Assembly (NCBI GenBank): GCA_023135255.1
Contig: JAGLTN010000085.1
Coordinates: 1-14,704, forward strand
Origin: Planctomycetota bacterium
GTDB lineage: Bacteria; Planctomycetota; Phycisphaerae; Sedimentisphaerales; Anaerobacaceae
Length of the DNA stretch: 14,704 nucleotides
Direction of reading: 5' to 3'
Position 1 is the stretch's first letter; every line of letters begins with the position of its first letter. Shown here in pieces: positions 1 to 14,704 of the stretch. The notes beneath the pieces are model-generated. The model saw nothing but the letters and a program-made list of their open reading frames with translations. It ran no database searches and was not told the DNA's origin. Both the position numbers and the translations under genes were made by a program.

Positions 1-468
1 ATCCGGATGCCAATCGCGGACGGTAAAGACTATACCATTTGGATCCTCACGGATAAATTCATAATAAACCAGATTGGTTTCATCACCATCATCAATAGCC
101 AAAGAAGCTCTCATCTCTACAGAATTCGGACCTGTCGGGGTAGGTTCGATTTCCCAGGTCATCGGGTTAGGTTCCGGAGGCGTTATATCGCCAACATCTT
201 CGCCGGTTAATGCACACCTAACATCTGACCAGTCAGACTCAGCAAAATTCGGAGAAAGATCCCGGACTTTGAATCTGAAGCAATATTCCACCTCACCTTG
301 TAAACCGGCAGCGATATACTCAGGCTCTTCCTGCCAATTGCTATTAGCATCTCCGTCGTTGATACACTCGAAATAGTATTCAACATCCCAGCCCCAGCTG
401 TTAATAACTGTCTTAGCTTCCATAGCGATACTTAACGTCGTCTGAGTGTAAGGCTCTACAAGCCATTT
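1..468 (-). repeat. Two Fn3-like repeats (second one cut by the window edge)
   Basis: Repeat 1 (about residues 2887-2973) runs from 'KWLVEPYTQTTLSIAMEA' through 'DVEYYFEC' and 'VEYCFRFKVRD' to 'AESDWSDV'. Repeat 2 starts at about 2989 ('MTWEIEPTPTGPNSVEMRA', then 'VYYEF') and continues off the window. The two align at W-x-(V/I)-E-P, at S-(I/V)-x-M and at (E/V)-Y-Y-(F/E). Such domains are beta-sandwich spacers or ligand-binding modules. Confidence 0.65.
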
Positions 469-3400
469 AGCTGTCATACCGCTGGCAGTTACCATCCAGC
501 ACTGAGCTATCCTGGAATAATCTTTAAAGTCAATTTTATCATCCGCTACAAGGTTAGCACCCTGACACCAACTGTTATCAACTGTACATTCAGTATCCAA
601 ATAAAGCCAGTATTGTGCCAAAATAGCAAGATCACCAAATTCCACTTTTCCGCTGTTATCAAGATCGCAGATTCGACACTCATCACCAATCGAATAATGG
701 TAACCCATATCCACGACAGTCTGGTCATACTTACCATCAGTCCTGGTAGTATAGGCCTGTAAACCAAACTCAGTTGCATCCGCGCTGCCAGCATCGATTG
801 CTGGACTGTCTTCGGTCTGATTCGGATCATCGATCTCTGCATGGCTGAGGAAGTAATCACCCCTAAAACCTGAAGCAAAGAATGGATCAACATAAAGGTT
901 ATTCGGACCCCAGATAACATCACATTCATTTGCAACGAACACTGCTGTCTCACCGCCAAGCACAATACTGTACGATACTTCCAGAGTAGAGCCGCTGGTG
1001 TTGCCATCTTGTTCAGATGCAACAGCCAACTGGTGACCGCTGCTGGCAGTATTGTTCCAGAAGATACTATTAATTATATTCGTATAACTGCCATAGCCGC
1101 AATACAAACCACCACCGTAGTTATAAGGTGACGGGAAGTTGATTCCGGCAATCATATTATTCGCAACCGTACAGTTAGAAACATTAAGCTGAGATAACCA
1201 GTTAGCCGAAATACCGCCACCGTCTCTTTCTGCTGTGTTAGATGTGATCAGACAGTTACGCAAACTGGAATTTGTATTGGAGAAATACACACCACCACCA
1301 GATGCACCCGTACTGTTCATGCTGATATTACAGTCAACGACCTCAGTATTGCCGGCAGTTATATACAGACCACCACCGAGACCAAATATTTCATCAGGGA
1401 ATATATTCGCATCCGGAGGCTGAATAGTAGAGTTATAAACAATTGTAGTATTCTCCACAAGACCATCACCGTCAGCATAATAAAGACCACCGCCGTGGAA
1501 AGCTGAATTATTAACAAAATTACAATCAATGATCTTCGCGTCTATACCGCCGCAATACATACCGCCGCCAATCGCAGCAAGGTTGTCGGTGAAGCTACAA
1601 TTCTTAAACGTAGGCTTTGCATTATCACGAGCTGCAACAGCACCACCATAACTGATGAATGGTTTATCATTATCAGCCGGGACATTTACATCAGCCTCGT
1701 TGTCAACGAAGTCACAGTCATAGAAATAAGGTGTACTGTTACTGTCGCAATAAACCGCACCACCTAAGGAATCAATCCTCAAAGGAGCCGCAGGTGTCAT
1801 TATCAGATCCCACCCGCCATTCAATCCGTTAATTCCACAGGAACCGCCGTAACTTCTGTTGCCTTCGAAGTAACATTCCTTAAATACAGGACTGCAATCA
1901 GGCCCAACAAACACAGCTCCGCCTAATCCGCTGTACCTGGTATATTCGTCATACTGACCATCATAACCTCTGCCGTCAAAATGATAACCGAAAGGCCAAT
2001 AAATCAATGTCCAAGAGTAATAACTGTAAGGCTCACCATAATACCAACCGCCGCCAAGACCAGCATCTCCATAAATGTAGTTATCGTTATCTTCAAAACC
2101 ATCACCGCCGTTACCGCCGTCACCACCCTGCGCTGAACAATCAATAAAGTCGCAGTTAATAAACGTTGGATTACTCGGACCTTGTTCTTCACCAGCCATA
2201 TCCCATCCAATATACATAGCAACAGCACCACCATGTGCCCCGCCGGGCCAACCGCCCATACCACCGTTGTTTTGCGCCTCATCACCATTAACACCATTAC
2301 CACCATCACCACCTATAGTATTACAATTTACAAATCTGCAGTTCTTGATAGTCGGAGATGCCTTAGAACACACAAGCGCAACACCGGCATTAGTACCGGA
2401 ATTCCTACCAGACATATTCGAAAAAGTATTAGGATCTGAATCTCCGTCATCACCATCAACAGTACGAATACTAAAATCACGAATAGTAATACCATTGAGC
2501 ACAGCCTGGGGACCGACATCTATAAAAGTAAATGCTCTGCCGTGGCTTCCGCCCTCAACAAGAAGTTGTTCGATGATCGTACCTGCAACGCAGTTCGGGT
2601 CATCAGGACTGCTGCTTGCAATAGTAATATTTTTACCAATAATAGTGAAACCTTCCTGCACACGATAAGTTCCACTGGCAAGAATAATAGTATCCAGCTC
2701 TCGGGCAGTATCAATAGCTGCCTGCAATGCGCCTGCATCACCGCCCGGAACAGAAATTACACCTGGTGTTTCAAATTCTATAGTAACTATCTTGTCACCA
2801 TCCATGACAACCGTGTTTTCCAATGTCAATAATGTATCATCGTCTGTACCGCTCCACTGTTTAACCCTGTAGCCACCATCCGGCGCCGCCGTTATAGTAA
2901 CAACCGTATCACGAGGATAAACACCATTTGCATCAGGCTCAGGATCAACCTCATAGCTGCCGTTGCCGCCGACAATACTTACATCAAGAATACACGAATT
3001 TTTAACAAAACCTACAACAACAGTCTTGTTGGTATTCATATGTACTGTGTTAGTCGTCGCTGTCAGGTTGTCATTATCGCTGCCGCCCCACTGCACCTGG
3101 TAATTTGCCGGCGGATCACTTACCGTAAGTGTAACCGTCGTGTATTGAGTGTAATAAGTAATGCCGCACGGATCAATAACAGGCACAACATTAATATCAG
3201 GATCCGTTATTGCTATAAAGTTAAGCTCCATAATATCTGTGTCAAACATCGGATGATGATAACCCATATCAACGATATCTTCGTCCGGGCCTGAATCTGT
3301 ACGTGTAGTATAGCCGTCAAAACCGAGCACGCTTGCAAAATCACTGCCCGTATCAACTGACGGACTGTCCACAAGCTGACCTGCTGATATCTGTGACAGG

Positions 3401-6400
3401 AGATAATCACCCATGAACAACGGATCCTGGTTTCTATTCTCAGTATACGGTGCCCATCCATTGCTGTCAGGATACATATTCGGATCCCAACCTTCTATGA
3501 AGCAGTTCGTATCTGCATAGACAGAAACATCTCCTGGGCCAATATTACTGTATGTAACATATACCGATGCTGGTTCCTCTTCAACACCAACAGAAATCTG
3601 AACACCAGGATTATCCCAGACAATAGAATTAACGATATTTGCACTACCACCATTAGAAACATCAATACCTGCTCCGAAAGTACCAACATAAGACGACGCT
3701 TCAAGATGTATCACAGTTATTCCGAGATGCAGCATACTTGGCATTCCTGGATATTCATAGTAACCGCCCCATTCCATCCTGTCTTTCCGGTTATCCCATG
3801 TATTATGCAGTATGATTTCCTGAGTTGCATCATTATAACCAACACCAGTCATCGAATGACCTGTAACAGTGATCAGTACCGGATAACCAGCGTCTATTTC
3901 TGCTTTATAATCCTCGAATGAAAATCCGCCTGCTGCATAAGTATCAACCATTTGGTTATAGTTTTCTGTTACAATATAACTCCGCGATTCAGCAAACAGC
4001 CTCATACCATGGCAACCAGCAGTCGCAGGTAATCCCCAAGATGAAGGTGGAATAAAGTTATATATTTTTTCCCCGTATGGTTCAAACCAAAACCATGTAC
4101 CACCATCTGGAAGACTGTCTTTACTGCCATTGTCGTCACCATGCCAGTCCCACTTCCACTGGCTTGTTCCCATAAAGTCAGCGGTACAACTGCCCCATTG
4201 ATGTTCAGTCGTACCATTTACTTCCCACGGATCAGGACCTTCTGCAAGCTCAGCAATCCAGTAATCATCTACATGGCCGTTAGTAGTTCTGCCGTCAACG
4301 CCATTCTGTGTTGCAATAATTGAACAGGAACCTGCTATAGGATTATTAGGGTCAGCACCCTGACCAAGATTTGTCAGAGGCACAACACCGCCGTTGGTCG
4401 GCCCGGTGTACATATTCGGATAACCATTACGATCATAGTAACCGAATACCATACCAGCTGCCGTAGCCGAACAACCATAAGTCCACGTCGAAGTGGGAAC
4501 ACTTGCAAGAACTACATCACCCAAAGCACTTACCGGCTGCACCTGAAGATGCAGTGCTATTGATTCAGGACTTGGTGGCGGACTGTTTTGGTCTAAAATT
4601 ATAAGATTGCTTAATTCTTCTGCACTAAGATCGTCACCATAAGTTGTAAGCCCTGAAACTGGCGATCCGCCTTCCTCTGAACTGCCACCCATGCCAATCA
4701 AAGATCCTATCCGGTTGCCGACAATAGTACAATTCGATATTGTCGGGTCAGCCCATGTCGTAACTGCTATACCACCGCCGTCATGACTCGCTATGTTATC
4801 CGTTATCAGACAGTTGATTACTGACTGATACTCTCCGCCATCAAAGAACAAACCACCACCAGAATATTCAGCAAGGTTTTCAGAAATATTGCAGTCAACA
4901 ATATTAACGTCAAGACTGCTGATATGTATACCGCCGCCGCTGCCGTCAGTTATGAATAGTAGGTTAGGATCTATCAAAGCCCTGGATTCATTGCCAATAA
5001 TGTTACATCCTATGATATCAGCTACACCATAGTTACCATAAATACCGCCGCCCTGCATAGCTATATTGCCGACAATATTACTGTCTTCAATAACAGGATT
5101 CGAATCAGCAAAGTGAATTCCACCGCCGATATCAGCTTGGTTCTCGTTTATATGACAATTTTTGAAAATAACAGAAGCTGTATCTTCAGAACAAACACCG
5201 CCACCATGACTGACTATAGGACTAAGGCGATATCTTCCCTGCATCTGGGATGCTACATTATTCGATATAATACAATTTTCAAACAGCGTATTACTGCCCC
5301 TGTCACAGTAAACACCCGCACCGAACGATGGTAATTCGTATGAAATTTGAGGCTCATAACGTTTTGGACCATAAAAACCACCTAAACCACTCATACCGCT
5401 GACAACAGTATTGCCGGTTATCTCACAGTTTATAAAATTAACATCAGAATTTAATCCGCAGTATACCGCTCCGCCGTAACCGCCATACCACTTATAATCG
5501 CCATAATAACCCAAATAGTCTGTGTCATCAATAGTGTACTCTGATCTATAATAAGTACCAAACATACCCATAGGATCGGTAGCAGGATTTGCTGATTTAT
5601 CCCAGATTTCCCACAATTCCCTGCTGGTATCAGAATTAGCGGGATCCGAATTCGTCCCACCAACATTAGTTCTGGGGTCGATATTACGGAATTCAAAAGA
5701 CATAAATGTACTCCAGTTACCGCCGTAGTTGGACCGGTTGCCGCTTTGCGCGTGGAAGTCACCGCCGTTACCACCGCTGCCGCCGATTGCTCTGTTATCC
5801 TGGAATGTACAATTAATAAACTGTGGTGCAGAATCGGTTCCGCAATAAACCGCGCCGCCTCTCGACCAGCCTCCCCAGCCTCCTCGACCAGCGTTAAAGG
5901 TAGCGTCAGCATCATGGCCATTGCCGCCGTCGCCGGCTTCACCTTCATTGTTCCTGATGATGCAGTTTCTAATTATCGGACTCGCATCGGCGTGAATGTA
6001 AATACAACCTCCCTGGAAAGATGGACCATCACCACCATTAAATCCGGCATCCCTCGGAGTACCGCCAGGCAGCCATGACCAACCGGCATTAATCATTGTC
6101 AAACCATCAATTACCGTGCCATTATCAATAATACCACTTATCCAAAACGCACGTTCGCGATAACCTCCGCGGTCAATAATTGTATCCGCAACATATAACG
6201 GGTCATTAGGATTTCTTGAACGTATATGAACATTTTTATAAAGTTCAATAACCGGCCCACGATAAACACCCTTATAAACTTCGATTACATCGCCATCCTG
6301 GGCCGCAAAGAGAGCATCACGAATATCAGAATAATAACCATCTCCGCCGTCACTTTTTACCTTGAGAACCTTAGGCGTTTCGAATTCTACTATGACTGTT

Positions 6401-9126
6401 TTATCTGAATTCATGATAACAGTATTAGTCAACTCTGTAGAAGAATCACTTTCAGTCCCATCCCAGTAGGCAACCCTGTAACTAAAATTAGGATTCGCGA
6501 CAAGAGTTACTACGGTGCCGGAATAAAAATCATTATTTTCCATTACCGGTATCGTTGTTACCGTACCATACGGGTTAACGATCTCAATATTAAGATGATA
6601 CACCGGCATATCAGCAGTCTTTGGACTGTGATAACCTAAATCAACCATACCAGCATCACCTGAGCCGGTTGGGTTTGTCAGGCTGTCAGTTCTGGTTGTA
6701 TAATTCTCCAACCCGACATTTACAGCCGAGGTGCTTCCCGCATCGACAGCCATGCTCTGCGGCTGATTTGGATCGGCTGCGGTCTGACTAAGATAATAAT
6801 CACCAAGGTCGCCAGAAACAAAATTCGGGTCGTCGTCAATATTAGCATTGGCATTCGCCAAACCATTAAGCTCAATCTTACCTGTATAAACCGTCTCTCC
6901 GCCGGGAACATAAACCCGGTAGTCACCGTCCGGATTCGAATAAAACAGGTTGTTATTCAATACAGACTGACTGTTTTCGTCACTCTCGTAAACAGCAACC
7001 TTATTGCACTGATTAAATATACAATTCTCTATCACAGGACTGCCGTTAAAGTTATTGTAAACAGCGCCGCCTGTTCCTGTAGGTGATGTAATTGTATTTT
7101 CACTGAAAGTATTATTGGTAAACAAAATCACAGAATAATTTAAATTAAATTCACTCGATATAGCGGAACCTTCATAGACCGCTGAGTTGTCAACAAATAA
7201 ACAGTTCTTAACCTCTGTTTGACCGGGAAAGAAGAAATAAATACCGCCGCCGTAACCTGATGAACTGTTTCTCAATATCCTGCAATTTTCAAAAGTAACT
7301 TCAACGTTGCTCGCGTAAACACCGCCTCCATATGCGCCACTCTCGAAAGTACTGTTGTCGGTGATATCGCAATCAACTACCCTCGAACCTAAGCCCGCTC
7401 TGTTACCGGACAGATATATACCGCCTGCTTCATCCTCAGCTAAGTTACTTATAAAAGTACAATTTGTAAACAAGTCAGGGTTTGGATTCCCAACTGATGG
7501 GTCAATAGGTTGGAAATTTTCAAAGTAAACACCACCACCTATAAGAGCCTCGTTGGAAATAACGGATGTTGAATACATTGCTACCTTACAAAACTGTCCA
7601 TCGCCTATTAAACTGATAGCTCCACCATATTCGGTAGCCTCGTTTAAACCAAATGAACATGAATTAATTTCAAGAACTGAACCACTTATCGTGGAAATTG
7701 CTCCGCCATTCCCCCAACTGAAATTAGTGCCGTCGTCAACACCTGCTGTATTCGCGTTTAAAGAAGAATGCGAAATGTGAATATCACAACCCATATCAGT
7801 ATTGATAGCACCACCGTCAAACATGGCATAGTTACTAAGGAACTTCGTGTCATTGATGTCAAAGATACACAAGGCCTCAGCCTCTATTGCACCACCGGAA
7901 CCATTCAATGCCTGGTTATGATTAAATACACACCCAGCATTAATGTTCAAAATACTTCCCGTCGCACAGTAGATGGCACCACCACTCTCACCTGCATCGT
8001 TGTGCTCAAATGTAGATGAATTCAGATTATTAGACGATTGCGTATTGTAATAAACAGCACCACCATGTCTCATATTGTTGGTAATGGTAGTACCCTGGGA
8101 TCCATCAGTTGCCGGATTATCGGGGTCTAAGTCGCTATTACCCATCTGACCACCTTGCCCGCCAAGACCCACTGTTACAGTATTGCTTGTAAAAGTACAT
8201 CTGGTTATATTGGGGTCAGATAATTGATCTGCGTAAATTACACCACCCTGACCATCACCTATACCATCACCTCCATCACCGCCATCACTGGCATATATTT
8301 CATATTGAGGAACAGCTCCTAAACCGGCACCACCTGCACCGCCGATACCGCCGTGCGCAAAGTTGTCGGCAAAATTACAATCGACGATCGTAGGTGTACT
8401 CGCCATGCCGCAGTAAATTGCACCACCTAAGCCGTTACCATCACCATCACCACCGGCGCCGCCAGGCAATATAGCCTCAATGGTTATAACACCAGTGACA
8501 GGGTCTTGGGTATATATGAAAAATCCAGGAGCACCTACACCACCTACCGCACCGTAAATATGACAGTTTTGGAAAACACAATTTTTAATCACCGGAGCAA
8601 TGGAAACTCCGGGCGTAATAACCGAACCAACATAAATCGCACCGCCGTAACCATCACCCTTAATTGACTCACCTGCCCACGTATCAGGATCAGGATTAGT
8701 GGGGTCTACACCAGTCAGGTCCCCATCAGCACCTATAGGCCCGGTGGCCATACCATTGATTATAGTAAAACCTGTAACAACAACATTACAATCCTGGTCA
8801 TCGACAAATGTAAAAGCCCTGCCTGAATTACCACAGTCTATAACTGTATCAGCAACACAACATGGGTCTGTAGGAGTATATGACTGTATCGTCAATTCTC
8901 TGACACCTGCCGGTATTGTAATACCAGTAACAGCAGGAACTGTATAAGGGACACCGCCATTGGAAGATATCCTCTTGACAATAACCCAATCACCATCATC
9001 ACACGCGTTAACCGCCGATGCAATAGTGGGGTATTCATTTGTTGGTACGGATCGAACCGTAGCAGCAAAAACTGACATTTGAATTGCTAACAAAATAATT
9101 ACACAAGCAAATAGTCTGCTTTTCAT
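1..9126 (-). CDS. Giant secreted multi-module beta-helix protein with embedded cysteine peptidase (C-terminus off the left edge)
   Basis: The frame is open from an ATG at 9126 to position 1 (3042 codons, no stop), so the C-terminus is outside the window. The start has an AGGAG six bases upstream and a clear signal peptide (MKSRLFACVIILLAIQMSVFAA), so the protein is exported by Sec. The mature part opens with 'YPTIASAVNACDDGDW', typical of extracellular pectin-lyase-like helices. Three right-handed beta-helix modules follow (about 23-790, 925-1920, 2123-2773), with recurring rungs of the form N-C-x-F-x-x-N and G-G-(A/G)-(I/V)-Y. InlB-B-like repeats lie at 842-917, 1966-2041 and 2045-2118. A C39-like peptidase lies at about 1524-1809, a dockerin-like pair at 2816-2878, and Fn3-like repeats from 2887. 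Substrate and partner are not recognisable; adhesion, polysaccharide binding or degradation are all possible. No polysaccharide-lyase catalytic motif was identified. The secretin gene lies 168 bp upstream in the same direction. Confidence 0.9.
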   Translation of the reverse strand, partial: MKSRLFACVIILLAIQMSVFAATVRSVPTNEYPTIASAVNACDDGDWVIVKRISSNGGVPYTVPAVTGITIPAGVRELTIQSYTPTDPCCVADTVIDCGNSGRAFTFVDDQDCNVVVTGFTIINGMATGPIGADGDLTGVDPTNPDPDTWAGESIKGDGYGGAIYVGSVITPGVSIAPVIKNCVFQNCHIYGAVGGVGAPGFFIYTQDPVTGVITIEAILPGGAGGDGDGNGLGGAIYCGMASTPTIVDCNFADNFAHGGIGGAGGAGLGAVPQYEIYASDGGDGGDGIGDGQGGVIYADQLSDPNITRCTFTSNTVTVGLGGQGGQMGNSDLDPDNPATDGSQGTTITNNMRHGGAVYYNTQSSNNLNSSTFEHNDAGESGGAIYCATGSILNINAGCVFNHNQALNGSGGAIEAEALCIFDINDTKFLSNYAMFDGGAINTDMGCDIHISHSSLNANTAGVDDGTNFSWGNGGAISTISGSVLEINSCSFGLNEATEYGGAISLIGDGQFCKVAMYSTSVISNEALIGGGVYFENFQPIDPSVGNPNPDLFTNCTFISNLAEDEAGGIYLSGNRAGLGSRVVDCDITDNSTFESGAYGGGVYASNVEVTFENCRILRNSSSGYGGGIYFFFPGQTEVKNCLFVDNSAVYEGSAISSEFNLNYSVILFTNNTFSENTITSPTGTGGAVYNNFNGSPVIENCIFNQCNKVAVYESDENSQSVLNNNLFYSNPDGDYRVYVPGGETVYTGKIELNGLANANANIDDDPNFVSGDLGDYYLSQTAADPNQPQSMAVDAGSTSAVNVGLENYTTRTDSLTNPTGSGDAGMVDLGYHSPKTADMPVYHLNIEIVNPYGTVTTIPVMENNDFYSGTVVTLVANPNFSYRVAYWDGTESDSSTELTNTVIMNSDKTVIVEFETPKVLKVKSDGGDGYYSDIRDALFAAQDGDVIEVYKGVYRGPVIELYKNVHIRSRNPNDPLYVADTIIDRGGYRERAFWISGIIDNGTVIDGLTMINAGWSWLPGGTPRDAGFNGGDGPSFQGGCIYIHADASPIIRNCIIRNNEGEAGDGGNGHDADATFNAGRGGWGGWSRGGAVYCGTDSAPQFINCTFQDNRAIGGSGGNGGDFHAQSGNRSNYGGNWSTFMSFEFRNIDPRTNVGGTNSDPANSDTSRELWEIWDKSANPATDPMGMFGTYYRSEYTIDDTDYLGYYGDYKWYGGYGGAVYCGLNSDVNFINCEITGNTVVSGMSGLGGFYGPKRYEPQISYELPSFGAGVYCDRGSNTLFENCIISNNVASQMQGRYRLSPIVSHGGGVCSEDTASVIFKNCHINENQADIGGGIHFADSNPVIEDSNIVGNIAMQGGGIYGNYGVADIIGCNIIGNESRALIDPNLLFITDGSGGGIHISSLDVNIVDCNISENLAEYSGGGLFFDGGEYQSVINCLITDNIASHDGGGIAVTTWADPTISNCTIVGNRIGSLIGMGGSSEEGGSPVSGLTTYGDDLSAEELSNLIILDQNSPPPSPESIALHLQVQPVSALGDVVLASVPTSTWTYGCSATAAGMVFGYYDRNGYPNMYTGPTNGGVVPLTNLGQGADPNNPIAGSCSIIATQNGVDGRTTNGHVDDYWIAELAEGPDPWEVNGTTEHQWGSCTADFMGTSQWKWDWHGDDNGSKDSLPDGGTWFWFEPYGEKIYNFIPPSSWGLPATAGCHGMRLFAESRSYIVTENYNQMVDTYAAGGFSFEDYKAEIDAGYPVLITVTGHSMTGVGYNDATQEIILHNTWDNRKDRMEWGGYYEYPGMPSMLHLGITVIHLEASSYVGTFGAGIDVSNGGSANIVNSIVWDNPGVQISVGVEEEPASVYVTYSNIGPGDVSVYADTNCFIEGWDPNMYPDSNGWAPYTENRNQDPLFMGDYLLSQISAGQLVDSPSVDTGSDFASVLGFDGYTTRTDSGPDEDIVDMGYHHPMFDTDIMELNFIAITDPDINVVPVIDPCGITYYTQYTTVTLTVSDPPANYQVQWGGSDNDNLTATTNTVHMNTNKTVVVGFVKNSCILDVSIVGGNGSYEVDPEPDANGVYPRDTVVTITAAPDGGYRVKQWSGTDDDTLLTLENTVVMDGDKIVTIEFETPGVISVPGGDAGALQAAIDTARELDTIILASGTYRVQEGFTIIGKNITIASSSPDDPNCVAGTIIEQLLVEGGSHGRAFTFIDVGPQAVLNGITIRDFSIRTVDGDDGDSDPNTFSNMSGRNSGTNAGVALVCSKASPTIKNCRFVNCNTIGGDGGNGVNGDEAQNNGGMGGWPGGAHGGAVAMYIGWDMAGEEQGPSNPTFINCDFIDCSAQGGDGGNGGDGFEDNDNYIYGDAGLGGGWYYGEPYSYYSWTLIYWPFGYHFDGRGYDGQYDEYTRYSGLGGAVFVGPDCSPVFKECYFEGNRSYGGSCGINGLNGGWDLIMTPAAPLRIDSLGGAVYCDSNSTPYFYDCDFVDNEADVNVPADNDKPFISYGGAVAARDNAKPTFKNCSFTDNLAAIGGGMYCGGIDAKIIDCNFVNNSAFHGGGLYYADGDGLVENTTIVYNSTIQPPDANIFPDEIFGLGGGLYITAGNTEVVDCNISMNSTGASGGGVYFSNTNSSLRNCLITSNTAERDGGGISANWLSQLNVSNCTVANNMIAGINFPSPYNYGGGLYCGYGSYTNIINSIFWNNTASSGHQLAVASEQDGNTSGSTLEVSYSIVLGGETAVFVANECDVIWGPNNLYVDPFFASGFRGDYFLSHAEIDDPNQTEDSPAIDAGSADATEFGLQAYTTRTDGKYDQTVVDMGYHYSIGDECRICDLDNSGKVEFGDLAILAQYWLYLDTECTVDNSWCQGANLVADDKIDFKDYSRIAQCWMVTASGMTAKWLVEPYTQTTLSIAMEAKTVINSWGWDVEYYFECINDGDANSNWQEEPEYIAAGLQGEVEYCFRFKVRDLSPNFAESDWSDVRCALTGEDVGDITPPEPNPMTWEIEPTPTGPNSVEMRASLAIDDGDETNLVYYEFIREDPNGIVFTVRDWHPD
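493..681 (-). other. Dockerin-like EF-hand pair
   Basis: Residues 2816-2878. The first loop 'DLDNSGKVEFGD' (2821-2832) fits a dockerin/EF-hand calcium loop and is followed by 'LAILAQYWL'. The second loop 'NLVADDKIDFKD' (2858-2869) lacks the usual acidic residue at position 3 and the Gly at position 6, and is followed by 'YSRIAQCWM'. Cysteines (2817, 2820, 2847, 2854) flank the loops. Such modules are common in planctomycete secreted proteins, usually without a known cohesin partner. Here the pair is internal rather than C-terminal. Confidence 0.7.
694..807 (-). repeat. Module-closing segment, copy 3
   Basis: Residues 2774-2811: 'SPAIDAGS', 'QAYTTRTD' and 'VVDMGYHY'. It closes beta-helix module 3 and is followed within five residues by the dockerin-like pair rather than by an InlB-B-like repeat. 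Confidence 0.8.
2773..2994 (-). repeat. InlB-B-like bacterial repeat 3
   Basis: Residues 2045-2118, with 'PRDTVVTITAAPDGGYRVKQW' (residues 2071-2091) and the ending 'NTVVMDGDKIVTIEF'. It sits three residues after copy 2 and leads directly into module 3. Confidence 0.75.
3004..3231 (-). repeat. InlB-B-like bacterial repeat 2
   Basis: Residues 1966-2041, with 'TQYTTVTLTVSDPPANYQVQW' (residues 1992-2012) and the ending 'NTVHMNTNKTVVVGF'. It is the first of two tandem copies between modules 2 and 3. Confidence 0.72.
3253..3366 (-). repeat. Module-closing segment, copy 2
   Basis: Residues 1921-1958: 'SPSVDTGS', 'DGYTTRTD' and 'IVDMGYHH'. It is preceded by 'MGDYLLSQ', as in copy 1 ('LGDYYLSQ'). 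Confidence 0.8.
3691..4704 (-). other. C39-like (papain-fold) cysteine peptidase domain inserted in beta-helix module 2, with its linker
   Basis: Residues 1475-1812 interrupt the helix. A linker rich in Gly, Ser and Pro (1475-1522) leads into a domain at about 1524-1809. This domain shows a nucleophile motif 'WTYGCSATAAGMVFGYYD' (Cys1552), 'NGHVDDYW' (His1618), 'CTADFMGTSQ' (1647-1656), the catalytic-His segment 'VLITVTGHSMTGVGYN' (His1757) and 'LHNTWDN' (Asn1775). This Cys-His-Asn order and spacing fit the C39-like peptidase clan. The domain resembles secreted family members of the 'GCGPTAAGM...GYYD' type seen in environmental bacteria. Catalytic residues look intact. Its substrate is unknown; processing of the host protein or of surface proteins is conceivable. 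Confidence 0.75.
6376..6603 (-). repeat. InlB-B-like bacterial repeat 1
   Basis: Residues 842-917. The pattern is a strand-rich domain with 'YSGTVVTLVANPNFSYRVAYW' near its middle (residues 868-888) and 'NTVIMNSDKTVIVEF' at its end. This is the usual layout of divergent InlB B-repeat/bacterial repeat domains, which act as rigid spacers in surface proteins. It links beta-helix modules 1 and 2. Confidence 0.75.
6628..6756 (-). repeat. Module-closing segment, copy 1
   Basis: Residues 791-833 end module 1. They contain 'AVDAGS', 'ENYTTRTD' and 'GMVDLGYHS'. This segment follows the last helix rungs ('GDYYLSQ') and precedes the InlB-B-like repeat. The same block closes modules 2 and 3. Confidence 0.8.
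9061..9126 (-). other. Signal peptide of the giant protein
   Basis: Residues 1-22 show a basic start (MKSR), a hydrophobic core (LFACVIILLAI) and a small-residue end (SVFAA). Signal peptidase I cleavage is most likely around A21/A22. There is no lipobox, so a lipoprotein is unlikely. Confidence 0.85.
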
Positions 9127-9294: not shown

Positions 9295-12200
9295 TTAGAA
9301 ATCACCTTCCATCGCAGCTATAGCTTCAGCTTCAGCCTCCTCCTGCAGAATTATTGTTGGCTTAACCAGGATCAAAAGAATTCTCTGATCCTTAACTTTA
9401 CTGCGATTGTTAAACGCTCTTCCGATAATAGGTATCTTGCTCAAAATAGGAACACCTGCTTCTGTTTCGGTTTCTGCCGTCAATTTCTGACCACCTAACA
9501 GGAGTGTACCACCATCGGGAACACTAACACGAGTACGAACTCGAGATGTCTCAACATGCGGAAATTCAACCGAAAAATTCATACCACCAACACCACCGGT
9601 GTACATACCAACATCAATAGTCCGTTTCGTGAAACCAAGGAAGTCATCAAGCTGAGCTTCAATATTTAAAATTACATGCTTCTTATCATGTGTTATGATA
9701 GGAGTAACATTAAGAATCGTTCCGGAAGTAACCGTTCTGTCTTCATAGTTGACATTACTCATCAAAATATTTGATGATTCATTGCCAGAAGTACCTACCT
9801 GCGTATCTATCTCAATATCACCAGCATAACCAAATGTGGTCTGAACACGCAAGTCCGCTGATTCACCATTGATTACAGTTACCTTAGGTGCTGTCAAAGC
9901 CCTGGTATCTTTGTGAGCCTGTGTTGCCCTGAGCACAAAACTAACCATAAGGTCGTCAAGTAGGCCACCATAACCGCCCGAAAATTGTGCAGCAATTCCA
10001 GTACCTGCCAGACTTCCAGGTATATCAGCCAGCGATGCTGTGTCTGTTATACCACTTGAATCCTGCAGGAAATTAGGAGCCTGCCATCCACCACCACCAA
10101 GCTTGAAAAATTGAAAATCAACATCCAAACCAATATCCTCAAGGAAATTTTCACCTACCAACAAGAATCTGGCTTCAATCGCCACCTGGTAACCAAGAGA
10201 TTTACGAAGCTTCTCAAGGAGCTTATCGATCTTACCATGGATTTCTGAAGTCTGACGCACAATAAGCTTCTTTGTTCCGTATATAGTTATTGAACCTTCA
10301 CCGCCAAGTTCTTCCCAACTTTCAGGATCAATCGTATTCTGGATCAAAAGAACCAATCCGCCTGCTCTTTCGCCGGCATCTTCTCTAAGCTCATCCCTGT
10401 CCAGCTGATCATCACTGCCGCCTGAATCCTGAAAACCGCCTCCAATATTATCAAGGCTCGATGAGCTGCCTCCACCTGTAGGGGCCTGTGTTCTATAATC
10501 AGCCCTTCTGCCAAGCAAATCGGTGATATCATACACCAGGGTCTCAAGCTTACTTGGAAGTGAATAAACCGTGGCAATAGTTATAATACCATTTTCAACT
10601 GAGTAACCAAGTTCAGCAAAACCACCTGAAACCGACCGCAGCAGCAAATCCAAAGCCGCTGATACTGGTATTGCCTCTACCGCATCCATATTGATGGGTG
10701 TTGTAGGTTCGATATCAGCATTGTCAAGCAAGTCACCCCACATAACAACGATCTTCAAAGCTGGATCTACCGACTTTTTCAATATCTCAATAGCAGCACT
10801 AAAAGAAGTATCAGGTGTCAATTCAGAAAGATCGACCGTCTCTGCCAACTGTTTGTAAACAGCCGCATTAGCGGGATCCTGACCGATAGCCTCTTCAGGT
10901 CTGCGCTTTGCGGAAATCTCACGCCAGTTTTTAGGCAGTGTCATTTCTTTAGCATAAGGGATCGATGCCTCATCAGTCATAAACAGAAGATCAGCTCTTT
11001 GTTTTTCAGATTCTTTTTTCAACTCAAGCTGCTCTCTGAAGTTGATAGTATCTTCGAGAGTCTGCTTAAGAATAAGAGCATTATTATTCAATGGATCAAT
11101 TGCAAGCAGACTGTCAAGCTGACCAAGGGCTTCATCATATCGCTGCTGCTCAAGATAAGCATTAGAATTTCCCATCAGCTCTGTAATTCTTTTTTGCCTG
11201 TCAGATTCCATCTGCTCTCTATGAACCCTCTGAGCCTCAATAGATTCCTGACGCCTTTTCTCCTCAAGATCGATCTGCTGGACTTTTTTGCCCTGCTCTA
11301 TCTGATCATGCAATTGTTCCAGGTGGTCGCTGTAGCCCATGAAAAGCTGATCACCAAGATGAAGCGGGTTTTTATTAACAAGACGCTCAGCTGTTTCAAC
11401 GGCATCTTTAGCCTCATCAAAGCTGCCCTCATTGATAAATACGTTAGCCTTTGCTACTGAATCATTTACAACAGCATTGGTATGGCTCTTAAGAATGTTT
11501 CTTTTGCGGTTGATAACATCAATATAAGCATCTTCTTCTTCAACCTCGACTACTGCCTCAGGCTCAGTTACAACCTCTATCACTTCGACCTCCGTAACAG
11601 GCTCAATACTTACAACCTCTTGCGGAATTTCTTCAACTACAACTTCCTTGATCTCGACAACCTCAACCTCTTTAATCTCAACAACCTCAACCTCTTTGAC
11701 CTCGGTGAGTTCTTCTGCAGGGGCTTCGAGCTCTTCGAACTGCTCAACTGCCGGTGCCTGCTTTACAAGAATATTGTCGATCTTAACCAGATAGTCTTCT
11801 GCTGTCTCACCCGTAGGTGCTACCAGCAAACCATTTTTGCTGACTTTGATAAAACCATCACGAGCTTCTTCATACTGACCCGCTTCAAAAAGATTAACAC
11901 TCTTATTGTAAAGCTCAGCTATATCTTTCTTTTCTCCGCCAAGCCTGGAATCTGCCTCCGCCAGAGATTCACTGACAAGTTGTCTTTCCTCGTCAGAGAG
12001 ATACTGATTACTAAGAATCTTTTCATAATAAGCTTTAGCCCGAACAAATTTACCGCTGCTCATAAGCTTGTCTGCTTGTTTGATATCTTTTAATATGTCC
12101 TCTCTTTGCAAAGAAGCTTCATGTGTTTTTGCAAGAAGGGTTTCAATCTGCTCAAGCTCCTCGACCGTAAGATATTCCTTATAATCTCTCGCTCGAAGCA

Positions 12201-12408
12201 GTGATTGTTCAGCCGCCTTATAAAAACCGCGGTTAAATTGCTCGCTGCCGACCTGAATCCAGCGCATCGCAACTTTGTGAACTATCTGTTTGCCATTATC
12301 GGCTGCCTGACAGTTCGGCGTCATTACTGAAAATGTCACCACCAGCAAAAACGCAGATAACACAACCAGTAAAAAACTCCGGGTAAATTTACTATTAACT
12401 CTTCTCAT
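9295..12408 (-). CDS. Secretin of a type II secretion / type IV pilus system with long N-terminal helical extension
   Basis: Forms the multimeric outer-membrane gate of a GspD/PilQ-type machine. The ATG at 12408 is preferred because GGAGGGG lies four bases upstream and a signal peptide begins there (MRRVNSKFTRSFLLVVLSAF, cleavage near CQA-ADN). This gives 1037 residues; longer versions from TTG 12459 or ATG 12444 would bury the signal peptide. Order: TPR-like repeats (about 38-217), Glu/Val-rich linker (223-293), second helical block (303-383), charged coiled-coil/TPR stretch (383-473), N0/N1-like domain (523-633), Gly/Ser/Asp linker (640-683), N3-like segment (684-735), secretin core (about 741-1020). 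Core signatures are 'QVAIEARFLLVGENFLEDIG', 'ALTAPKVTVINGESADL', 'TILNVTPIIT', 'VPDGGTLLLGGQ' and 'GVPILSKIPIIGRAF'. Typical GspD is about 650-700 residues, so the extension is unusual. The exact subfamily cannot be set by eye. Confidence 0.92.
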   Translation of the reverse strand: MRRVNSKFTRSFLLVVLSAFLLVVTFSVMTPNCQAADNGKQIVHKVAMRWIQVGSEQFNRGFYKAAEQSLLRARDYKEYLTVEELEQIETLLAKTHEASLQREDILKDIKQADKLMSSGKFVRAKAYYEKILSNQYLSDEERQLVSESLAEADSRLGGEKKDIAELYNKSVNLFEAGQYEEARDGFIKVSKNGLLVAPTGETAEDYLVKIDNILVKQAPAVEQFEELEAPAEELTEVKEVEVVEIKEVEVVEIKEVVVEEIPQEVVSIEPVTEVEVIEVVTEPEAVVEVEEEDAYIDVINRKRNILKSHTNAVVNDSVAKANVFINEGSFDEAKDAVETAERLVNKNPLHLGDQLFMGYSDHLEQLHDQIEQGKKVQQIDLEEKRRQESIEAQRVHREQMESDRQKRITELMGNSNAYLEQQRYDEALGQLDSLLAIDPLNNNALILKQTLEDTINFREQLELKKESEKQRADLLFMTDEASIPYAKEMTLPKNWREISAKRRPEEAIGQDPANAAVYKQLAETVDLSELTPDTSFSAAIEILKKSVDPALKIVVMWGDLLDNADIEPTTPINMDAVEAIPVSAALDLLLRSVSGGFAELGYSVENGIITIATVYSLPSKLETLVYDITDLLGRRADYRTQAPTGGGSSSSLDNIGGGFQDSGGSDDQLDRDELREDAGERAGGLVLLIQNTIDPESWEELGGEGSITIYGTKKLIVRQTSEIHGKIDKLLEKLRKSLGYQVAIEARFLLVGENFLEDIGLDVDFQFFKLGGGGWQAPNFLQDSSGITDTASLADIPGSLAGTGIAAQFSGGYGGLLDDLMVSFVLRATQAHKDTRALTAPKVTVINGESADLRVQTTFGYAGDIEIDTQVGTSGNESSNILMSNVNYEDRTVTSGTILNVTPIITHDKKHVILNIEAQLDDFLGFTKRTIDVGMYTGGVGGMNFSVEFPHVETSRVRTRVSVPDGGTLLLGGQKLTAETETEAGVPILSKIPIIGRAFNNRSKVKDQRILLILVKPTIILQEEAEAEAIAAMEGDF
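11651..11698 (-). repeat. Two tandem 24-bp repeats in the Glu/Val linker of the secretin
   Basis: The 24-base units 11651-11674 and 11675-11698 differ at two positions. They encode the repeated eight-residue motif around 'EVEVVEIK'. The surrounding linker continues the same Glu-Val-Val theme in a less regular way, which suggests expansion by slippage. Confidence 0.75.
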
Positions 12409-12412
12409 ATTA

Positions 12413-12419
12413 CCCCTCC
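12413..12419 (-). promoter_or_regulatory. Ribosome binding site that decides the secretin start
   Basis: GGAGGGG lies four bases before the ATG at 12408. The upstream in-frame TTG (12459) and ATG (12444) have weaker signals (the latter a GAGG about nine bases away). Confidence 0.7.
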
Positions 12420-12534
12420 AATCAAAACGTCGACTAAATTTCATCACCGAAATCCTCAATTAATATCTGAAACTTTAATTCAAAAACACAAAACCCCACC
12501 AACAACAGTAAGATAGGTTATTTCCTATTGCCCT

Positions 12535-12964: not shown

Positions 12965-14089
12965 CTAATTTTCCTGCTCAGCCTTATCTTCTGTCTCACC
13001 AAGCCATTCCATTCTGCCGGCAATAATTACCTCTGACAAAATTTTAAGCTGCTCTTTATACTGGTTATAAAGTTCATCGCCGATCATGTTCCTGTTTGCC
13101 GTTAATATGTTAAAAGCTTTTTCAACTGCCTTTTGAGCATGATAGAAACGCCCCTCCCTGGCAAGCTTATCCGCAGTATCAACCGCATTTTTTACTACCG
13201 CTCGGCTATAACTTTCCTTAACACTCAACTTAGGCTTTGATTTTGTTTCAACCGCCTTAACTTCCGCAACATCGACTGTAGGCTCATTTACATTTACATT
13301 AACAACCTCAATAATTCCAATAACCTCCACAGGTTCTTCTGTTTTCCCATCACTACCTGACGGTGCCGCTATCTCAGTCAGCAAACTTTCTTCTGCTTTT
13401 GCTTTTTCTTCCTCTATCTTTTCTTCCTCTAATGAAGGAAATTCTGTCCTCTGAACAAGTACCGCATCGATCTTAGCGAGGTACTGCTCTGCCGATTTAC
13501 CCTTTTCTGCCTGAAAAAGTTCCTCTCTGCTCACTTCTAAAAAACCTTTGCGGGCATTCTCATAATCTTCGTTCTCGAAGAACTTAACGCTGTCCTTATA
13601 AATCTGGCCGACAACTTTCTTTCTTTGTTTTATCTTCTGGTCTATCTCTTTAAGTGTCTCTTCAATATATTTAAGCTTATCTGCTGAAATCCCCTGACTA
13701 CTCTTTGCCTGCTCATAACACATCTGAGCCTCAGGCAATTTGCCCTCAGCAAACAGTAGTCCGCCTTTTCTCATGTTTTCTTCGACCTTGGAATTGTCCT
13801 CAGCAGCGTTTTTGACCTTGGTCAAAAGCTCATTGATCTGGTTGAGATCACTAACCGAAAGATACTTCTTATAATCTAAAGCTCTAAGCAAAGACTTTTC
13901 CGCCTGGCTGTAAAAACCCCTCTCATATTGCTTGGCACCAACCCTCATCCAGTCCTGTGCTACGCGGTTAACGATCTTTTGCTTATCCGGCGGTTGAGGT
14001 TGAGCAATAGTTAAAGAAGATGAAATGAAACCGACAAATAAACTTACCAGCAAAATCCTGCCGGCTGTAGGTAAATATCTCTTATCCAA
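12965..14089 (-). CDS. Exported TPR-like protein, paralogue of the secretin N-terminal extension
   Basis: Predicted periplasmic protein of 374 residues. A TTG start at 14089 is chosen because AGGAGGT sits five bases upstream and a signal peptide begins there (MDKRYLPTAGRILLVSLFVG, cleavage near TIA-QPQ). The TTG at 14140 has no such site, and no ATG precedes the signal peptide. Residues 35-214 align without large gaps to the secretin N-terminus; both share 'QVGSEQF/RVGAKQY', 'RGFY', 'SLLRA' and 'DYK-YL'. In one 54-residue block about 31 positions are identical. A Glu/Val-rich linker (about 219-285) and a second helical block (289-355) also match. The protein ends where the secretin continues into its coiled-coil, N0 and gate domains. 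Likely role (inference): accessory or assembly partner of the secretin, or a surplus duplicate. I know of no named family. Confidence 0.85.
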   Translation of the reverse strand: MDKRYLPTAGRILLVSLFVGFISSSLTIAQPQPPDKQKIVNRVAQDWMRVGAKQYERGFYSQAEKSLLRALDYKKYLSVSDLNQINELLTKVKNAAEDNSKVEENMRKGGLLFAEGKLPEAQMCYEQAKSSQGISADKLKYIEETLKEIDQKIKQRKKVVGQIYKDSVKFFENEDYENARKGFLEVSREELFQAEKGKSAEQYLAKIDAVLVQRTEFPSLEEEKIEEEKAKAEESLLTEIAAPSGSDGKTEEPVEVIGIIEVVNVNVNEPTVDVAEVKAVETKSKPKLSVKESYSRAVVKNAVDTADKLAREGRFYHAQKAVEKAFNILTANRNMIGDELYNQYKEQLKILSEVIIAGRMEWLGETEDKAEQEN

Positions 14090-14094
14090 AATGA

Positions 14095-14101
14095 ACCTCC
14101 T
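14095..14101 (-). promoter_or_regulatory. Ribosome binding site that selects the TTG start of the paralogue
   Basis: AGGAGGT is followed by five bases and then TTG. This near-perfect site is the main reason to place the start at 14089 rather than at the upstream TTG. Confidence 0.7.
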
Positions 14102-14182
14102 GTTCAACAGATGGTAATAAAATTCAATTTCAATACTCAAACAATTTTCAATAGATTAGCTTTATTCAAAGGCAATTGCAAC

Positions 14183-14279: not shown

Positions 14280-14704
14280 ATGACACAAGAACCATTAATA
14301 CTATCAGTCGAAACATCCGGGCGAACAGGCTCTGTGGCTATCGCAAAAGGCGAAAATATCCTCGCAAACCAGCATTTTTCAGCCCCGATGAAACATAGTG
14401 CCGAGCTTTTCCCCTGTGTAACCAAAATGCTGGAAAATAATAATTACTCGCCCCAGCAGATCGAACATGTCTATATCTCTATAGGTCCGGGCTCTTTTAC
14501 AGGCCTGAGGATCGCCACTACTATGGCAAAAATGATGCACCTGGCAAATAATGTCAAAATTGTAGCAGTAGACACGCTTGACGTTATCGCCGCTAACGCC
14601 TACCAATACATCCAAAGCCAATCTGATTCAAATATTGATAAAATTGGCGTTATTCTCGACGCAAAAAGAGGCAGATTCTTCGTTGCAGCATATCAAAAGA
14701 CCCG
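14280..14704 (+). CDS. tsaB: tRNA threonylcarbamoyladenosine biosynthesis protein TsaB (C-terminus off the right edge)
   Basis: TsaB partners with TsaD and TsaE to transfer threonylcarbamoyl to A37 of tRNAs that read ANN codons. It is cytoplasmic and has an ASKHA fold. The first 141 residues are present of a usual length of about 220-230. Family hallmarks are the N-terminal 'ILSVETS...GSVAIA' strand pair (7-22), 'HSAELFP' (39-45), the signature 'ISIGPGSFTGLRIATTMAK' (66-84) and 'DAKRGRFF' (127-134). The ATG at 14280 has no clear Shine-Dalgarno sequence, but no better in-frame start is present. It is transcribed away from the secretin cluster and is probably functionally unrelated. Confidence 0.93.
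   Translation, partial: MTQEPLILSVETSGRTGSVAIAKGENILANQHFSAPMKHSAELFPCVTKMLENNNYSPQQIEHVYISIGPGSFTGLRIATTMAKMMHLANNVKIVAVDTLDVIAANAYQYIQSQSDSNIDKIGVILDAKRGRFFVAAYQKT

Follow-up and report, generated by a model that had tools for sequence, protein, structure and literature searches.

How does a whole enzyme come to lie inside the regular coil of a beta-helix, and what could it do there? The question is raised by contig JAGLTN010000085.1 (assembly GCA_023135255.1) of a bacterium of the phylum Planctomycetota (order Sedimentisphaerales, family Anaerobacaceae), which is analysed here over a stretch of 14,704 nucleotides, called the window below. Its minus strand encodes a giant right-handed beta-helix protein, the host, and in the second of its helix modules a cysteine peptidase unit, the guest, is found at a position that we call site A. 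That a peptidase-like fold is nested there between two rungs is close to certain. We think it likely that the host is an exported, secretin-linked scaffold displaying exchangeable domains, in this case a cysteine peptidase that acts on other proteins.

The insert in the host protein

The host and the borders of its insert are as follows.

1..9126, minus strand: host, a multi-module right-handed beta-helix protein (open reading frame with PF13229 and Flg_new_2 profile matches)
6352..9066, minus strand: beta-helix module 1, residues 21-925 (cut by reading, then aligned)
2764..6351, minus strand: beta-helix module 2, carrier of the guest, residues 926-2121 (module alignment and homologue search)
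4714..4740, minus strand: last rung element before the insert, ISNCTIVGN, residues 1463-1471 (second and third rung strands in the in-situ model)
3682..4713, minus strand: guest unit at site A, comprising linker, pre-segment and papain-like cysteine peptidase, residues 1472-1815 (Pfam, alignments and fold predictions)
3610..3675, minus strand: first rung after the insert, GAGIDVSNGGSANIVNSIVWDN, residues 1818-1839 (motif position, homologue flanks and in-situ model)
682..2763, minus strand: beta-helix module 3, uninterrupted paralogue, residues 2122-2815 (module alignment)

The open reading frame (ORF) of the host covers 3042 amino acids within the window and remains open at the window end, with the C-terminus beyond it. 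In a Pfam scan PF13229 reaches 121.7 bits over seven stretches and InlB-like repeats (Flg_new_2) are recognized in two. A signal-like stretch is read by eye at the N-terminus, and the protein is probably secreted. The borders of the modules are our own choice, made by reading and then by alignment.

Modules 2 and 3 are collinear on both sides of the insert. Counted within the modules, residues 2-571 of module 2 align with residues 7-560 of module 3 before the insert (E = 1e-74), and residues 892-1037 align with residues 549-694 after it (E = 3e-20), so that the paralogous module marks both borders, as a preliminary description of this DNA had held. Between ISNCTIVGN and the motif GAGIDVSNGGSANIVNSI (residues 1818-1835, nucleotides 3622-3675) lie 346 residues, while the module 3 counterparts of these motifs (residues 2649-2657 and 2671-2688) are separated by a gap of 13 residues. 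The border motifs, their spacing and the positions of Cys1552, His1757 and Asn1775 are exactly those given in that description.

When guests and hosts were aligned jointly with MAFFT, the host rows came out misplaced, and two separate alignments were therefore used: A3 for the guest (20 rows) and A4 for the insert in situ (31 rows, including only two guest relatives). In the AlphaFold2 model calculated from the latter, the third strand of one rung leads into the insert, and the chain then re-enters the helix with the first strand of the rung after it. Both flanks show three strands per rung, as in a right-handed parallel beta-helix, and the rungs are modelled with confidence, the block-mean predicted local distance difference test score (pLDDT) being 78-94 before the insert and 79-91 just after it.

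Downstream of module 3, at about 487-678 on the minus strand, a dockerin-like or EF-hand-like repeat pair can be discerned by eye (CRICDLDNSGKVEFGDLAILAQYWL...), and strings resembling these repeats follow the last module in two other proteins (L087 and L089).

Family, fold and relatives of the guest

Within the guest, the following elements are distinguished.

4504..4662, minus strand: pre-segment accompanying the peptidase, LTTYGDDLSAEELSNLIILDQNSPP..., residues 1489-1541 (alignment identity and pLDDT)
3688..4503, minus strand: peptidase core, residues 1542-1813
4471..4473, minus strand: putative catalytic Cys1552 (invariant in 20/20 rows)
3856..3858, minus strand: putative catalytic His1757 (invariant in 20/20 rows)
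3802..3804, minus strand: Asn1775, candidate third catalytic residue (D16 N2 S1 E1)

The guest matches PF13529 (Peptidase_C39_2) with 27.6 bits in the context of the whole protein and 35.4 bits as a 400-amino-acid piece, the cut-off being 24. The matched stretch spans profile positions 39-143, including the histidine; the cysteine end of the profile is matched in relatives (residues 67-92 of L006 on profile positions 2-31 and residues 102-146 of L007 on positions 1-52). Cys1552 and His1757 are invariant in all 20 rows of the guest alignment, the window counted. The predicted fold of the guest has a papain-like core and ranks C10 and C47 peptidases first, with C39-like and C39 domains lower. 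We take C10 to be the family of streptopain and interpain A and C47 that of staphopain; the guest is only 10-15% identical to these enzymes over aligned residues, and the Pfam families of C10 and C47 are not listed in the Pfam scan of the window protein. A sequence search of solved structures with alignment A1 returned only a chance match (2e6o, E = 0.69). The profile match above the cut-off, the predicted papain-like fold and the rungs on both flanks bear out the proposal of the preliminary description that a peptidase is spliced between adjacent rungs, and the guest is likely to be catalytically active. The guest thus resembles PF13529 or C39-like peptidases in its profile match, its Cys and His motifs and its fold. 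It differs from them in having a core of about 270 residues plus a pre-segment, of which the Pfam match covers part, in being nested in a beta-helix and in showing no sign of leader-peptide processing.

Relatives of the guest occur in Planctomycetota, Ignavibacteriales, an Epsilonproteobacteria metagenome-assembled genome (MAG), Methanolinea and Dehalococcoidia. Counting its own genome, matches were obtained in 6/89 genomes of the same family (E up to 1e-3), 38/397 of the same class (E 1e-3), 9/161 of the same order (E 1e-20) and 3/392 of the phylum (E 1e-20), and tblastn gave no match to the guest in plasmids and phages. By reading, most strong relatives consist of a signal-like N-terminus and the domain, followed by a PEP-CTERM-like tail or by PKD, Ig-like or other domains; in a Pfam scan of 11 of them PEP-CTERM came up in L017 only, under the cut-off. 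Because these strong relatives mostly read as separate secreted-looking proteins, the whole unit seems to have been inserted. The pre-segment points the same way: before residue 1541, and counted from residue 1484, it shares 21/53 identical residues with L054 and 20/50 with L016, which suggests that the unit moved as a whole. Within this segment, pLDDT is 82-86 over residues about 1494-1513. A short IxVPGxPP-type motif is kept ahead of the peptidase core across phyla (L004, L006, L073 and L164), and the segment that carries it may be a propeptide. One relative (G027) has the peptidase domain un-nested, N-terminal to a beta-helix.

A different nesting is seen in L054, whose peptidase splits an Ig domain of the SdrD_B-like type. 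Ahead of the guest, the Pfam match to this Ig domain breaks off at position 80 of the 112 in the profile, and THTVVVDSGEIETGWNFGN after the guest resembles the last strands of an uninterrupted SdrD_B-like copy in L140. This assignment uses the uninterrupted SdrD_B-like tails of L140 and L141, a weak comparison of five stretches from two loci, for which two earlier patterns had found two and one. In the guest tree the window, whose position is unsettled, does not pair with L054, and judged from this tree the two insertions are likely to be separate events.

Two further relatives stand somewhat apart. L164, on a 13.7 kb IMG/VR contig held as viral, combines the peptidase with a Thr/Pro-rich N-terminus and Ig-like repeats (by eye); it reads as a cellular surface protein, and the contig may perhaps be cellular DNA. 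In L036 (G145:C70) the frame is broken within the domain, the pieces lie apart and one has an internal stop.

Site A and a second cargo loop in host homologues

Residues 926-1471, which precede the insert in module 2, matched 52/89 genomes of the same family, its own included, at E up to 1e-25, and homologues were fetched from 30 of the other 51. The survey of homologues proposed in the preliminary description did not recover the insertion: it is absent from site A in all 30, and the flank-probe alignments run through the site in every case. The site-A loop, from the NCTxxxN strand to the next GG(G/A) rung, measures 4-14 residues in 21 of the 30; for the other nine the loop pattern failed, and the printed strings put the next rung about 14 residues on. 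Taken over module 3 and the 30 homologues, this loop thus spans some 4-15 residues. Nor does the guest match any of 46 host ORFs at E 1e-3.

These homologues led to a second position, two rungs further on.

3472..3552, minus strand: site B, YSNIGPG...GWDPN, residues 1859-1885, empty in the window (comparison with cargo-bearing homologues)

In G088 and G061, a complete-looking subtilase lies about 50 residues past site A after a YSDI or FSDI strand, and the module tail then resumes. A first set comprised 30 homologue ORFs (L165-L194), some complete and some partial, of which 28 come from genomes that had also supplied the 30 site-A homologues. Nested cargo is present at site B in 17/30, a lower bound because several ORFs end at contig or region ends. 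It is a subtilase in six ORFs (L165, L166, L175, L186, L191 and L194; for example at residues 1617-2046 of L165 and 1642-2070 of L166), a VWA domain in 12 (L172, L175, L176, L177, L178, L181, L182, L184, L185, L186, L192 and L193) and a choice-of-anchor L domain in one (L190), with L175 and L186 carrying a subtilase and a VWA domain in successive modules. Both cargo flanks are visible except in L181 and L191, whose ORFs start inside the cargo. Profiles were run on eight of the 19 cargo modules: PF00082 was matched with 146.7 and 138.6 bits, in one case together with Inhibitor_I9, VWA models were matched in five modules and choice_anch_L with 246.8 bits in one; the remaining modules were classed by BLAST to the profile-checked ones. 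More distant subtilases lie near the N-terminal end in eight ORFs of this set.

An independent test of site B was provided by a hold-out set. Module 2 matched 23/198 genomes of the class, its own included, all within the order of the window. The hold-out consists of 16 of the 18 genomes not yet used as hosts (15/16 from outside the family of the window); G034 and G186, with the two largest new order-level host frames, lie outside the fetched set. The scan could detect only cargo classes that were already known, and it found site-B cargo in 8/16 ORFs: seven subtilases, with a choice-of-anchor L domain in the next module of one of them (L198), and one VWA domain in the same-family genome G010. 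All nine cargo modules have NCT-like and (D/N)(S/T/N)I rungs before the cargo, most with a YSDI-like strand, and a NIxxxPxF...TTRxD...VDxGYHY-like tail after it. Both sets together give site-B cargo in 25/46 host ORFs, in modules that carry 13 subtilases, 13 VWA domains and two choice-of-anchor L domains.

In module 2 of the window, site B is empty and the tail is longer, like that of cargo modules. A marker for this tail is present in 21/21 cargo modules vs 0/56 others; it was written after the sequences had been seen and so is not independent, and an earlier version marked only some cargo modules. In the in-situ model, sites A and B each follow the third strand of their own rung, two rungs apart by strand order, and on this geometry cargo at both would be expected to project from one side of the helix.

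Neighbouring genes and the role of the scaffold

The gene directly upstream of the host suggests how the protein may reach the surface.

9295..12459, minus strand: secretin with tetratricopeptide repeats, directly upstream of the host gene (PF00263, 104.2 bits)

A secretin gene occupies this position in 18 of the 19 testable relatives, i.e. those with 200 or more bases of upstream sequence; another 11 were not assessable. Judging by this arrangement, the host may be exported or assembled at the surface with the help of that secretin, and we infer that it is exported through it. Beyond the secretin, a 391-residue protein (12965-14140, minus strand) has matches in relatives that fall on the N-terminal half of secretin genes at about 30-34% identity, which on sequence is a partial paralogue of the N-terminal part of the secretin. 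In G061 a second stretch like this N-terminal part lies upstream of the secretin. The window ends within the start of a TsaB gene (14280-14702, plus strand; TIGR03725, 126.4 bits).

In the mechanism that we favour, the gene would encode an exported, secretin-linked, multi-module beta-helix scaffold. The whole peptidase unit, pre-segment and core, has been inserted in frame into the site-A loop of module 2; the helix would continue past the insert, with the enzyme standing out laterally. In this view the coil resembles a cargo rack, because many relatives hold different domains two turns on, where the equivalent loop in homologous modules accommodates a subtilase, a VWA or a choice-of-anchor L domain. 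The most likely role of such a scaffold would be to keep interchangeable enzymes or binding modules on display outside the cell; the domain displayed in the organism of the window would be a cysteine peptidase acting on other proteins. The insertion and its borders, the empty site A of relatives, the site-B cargo and the secretin gene order can be read directly from the sequences; export through the secretin, projection of sites A and B from one side, exchange of cargo, catalysis and action on foreign or neighbouring proteins are inferred.

Several observations weigh against this reading. A cysteine peptidase in such a host is known from one genome only, and that genome is a MAG broken into 644 contigs, with 83% completeness and 4% contamination. 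Site-B cargo was not found in 13/30 ORFs of the first set and 8/16 of the hold-out, some of them incomplete and the hold-out having been scanned for known classes, and the tail tree does not group the window module, whose position is unsettled, with the cargo modules. Export through the secretin has gene order as its sole basis, and one testable relative (G031) lacks a secretin upstream. In PF13529, Asp is expected as the third catalytic residue; position 1775 is Asp in 16 of the 20 rows, Asn in two, of which the window is one, Ser in one and Glu in one. Papain-like folds (clan CA) have a Gln six residues ahead of the catalytic Cys; none is present here, all 20 rows having Ser, Tyr or Phe instead, and another residue may serve in its place. 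Joining the SdrD_B flanks of L054 brings no gain in the Pfam match (40.0 bits vs 40.7 alone). Structure prediction, as proposed in the preliminary description, yielded the papain-like core and confident flanking rungs, and left the guest unresolved in situ, with pLDDT mostly <50 (51.5 for the whole model, with a predicted template modelling score of 0.46). The in-situ model is silent on the guest because guest and host alignments were kept separate.

The same facts can be read differently. The preliminary description had raised self-cleavage as an idea to be tested. In a reading of this kind, the exported protein would be matured or released by its in-built enzyme, which would cut the beta-helix that carries it or a copy of the protein on an adjacent cell. 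In favour of this, enzyme and scaffold are covalently joined, the pre-segment, a possible propeptide, is kept together with the domain, and the passengers of autotransporters are in some cases cleaved by their own protease subdomain, according to the accessible part of PMC9289746. However, all 30 fetched same-family homologues do without the peptidase, and its strong relatives mostly read as stand-alone proteins with no beta-helix to process. The cleavage after Gly-Gly that had been suggested from C39 relatives is not supported either. The host contains 85 Gly-Gly pairs per 3042 residues, six of them inside the guest, and this abundance by itself is uninformative on cleavage. Gly-Gly specificity belongs to PF03412, the bacteriocin-leader Peptidase_C39, which matches neither the host protein nor the guest at E up to 1 and has its sole match in the window genome on another contig (C194); for want of such a match the Gly-Gly idea was set aside, and the domain matches PF13529, its predicted fold being nearer C10 and C47. 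We regard in-built processing as unlikely; on the wider comparison the guest looks more like cargo on display.

It is somewhat less probable still that the papain-like fold serves another purpose in this host, such as binding, transglutaminase, amidase or acyl-transfer activity, or is catalytically weakened, given that Cys, His and their surrounding motifs are invariant in 20/20 rows from several phyla and that peptidases head the ranking of folds. An assembly artefact, or a neutral insertion that is not fixed, would accord with the fragmentation of the MAG and with the restriction of the insert to a single one of the 31 hosts whose site A was compared. Nevertheless, both junctions are in frame within one open frame of 3042 residues, base composition is continuous across the insert (0.41-0.48 GC), the guest keeps its Cys and His and, across the order, nested cargo is seen repeatedly in a loop close by, and we consider this explanation very improbable. 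Display of the peptidase by the scaffold thus remains the reading that we prefer.

Protease autotransporters are among the closest known systems. According to the accessible parts of PMC9977779 and PMC9289746, SPATEs and subtilase autotransporters such as Ssp carry an N-terminal protease atop a beta-helix, and small subdomains, such as the 57-residue loop d2 of Pet, project from helix loops. The host likewise appears to be an exported protein with a peptidase borne on a right-handed beta-helix stalk, but here the whole peptidase lies mid-helix between rungs, there are several helix modules and a secretin is the genetic neighbour. Lying at residues 1472-1815 of more than 3042, in module 2, the peptidase does not have the N-terminal position of a type Va autotransporter. 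As in nested domains generally, one domain interrupts another, and families are reused as inserted modules (PMC13114784); unlike those, unrelated guests recur here at one position of one solenoid host, and the main text of this 2026 survey mentions no peptidase, protease, beta-helix, solenoid or papain. Giant proteins of the PVC superphylum (PMC12057145) are similarly very large and putatively extracellular with tandem beta-helix domains, whereas the accessible part of that paper describes neither a nested peptidase nor a place for cargo between rungs. Nor were nested peptidases or site-B cargo in such proteins found described in the open-access PMC literature, and the insertion is one case of a broader pattern for which the literature searched yielded no description.

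Nested domains and protease-bearing beta-helices are already known; here a single family of hosts holds full-size domains of unrelated kinds at the same structural position, in several bacterial families of an order and with empty-site homologues available. With this system one can test directly how a solenoid tolerates inserted domains, how domains pass from one scaffold to another and which functions secretin-linked giant proteins have in Planctomycetota, and the loops of sites A and B are natural candidate insertion points for protein display. The chances are about even that Planctomycetota possess an order-wide family of secretin-linked giant beta-helix proteins in which neighbouring rungs have loops set aside for cargo at matching positions. 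Whole domains that are unrelated and fold on their own (subtilases, VWA, choice-of-anchor L and here a papain-like peptidase) would be inserted there and exchanged while the helix remains unbroken. Such proteins would be natural display racks, and the window would record the capture of a new enzyme beside the usual loop.
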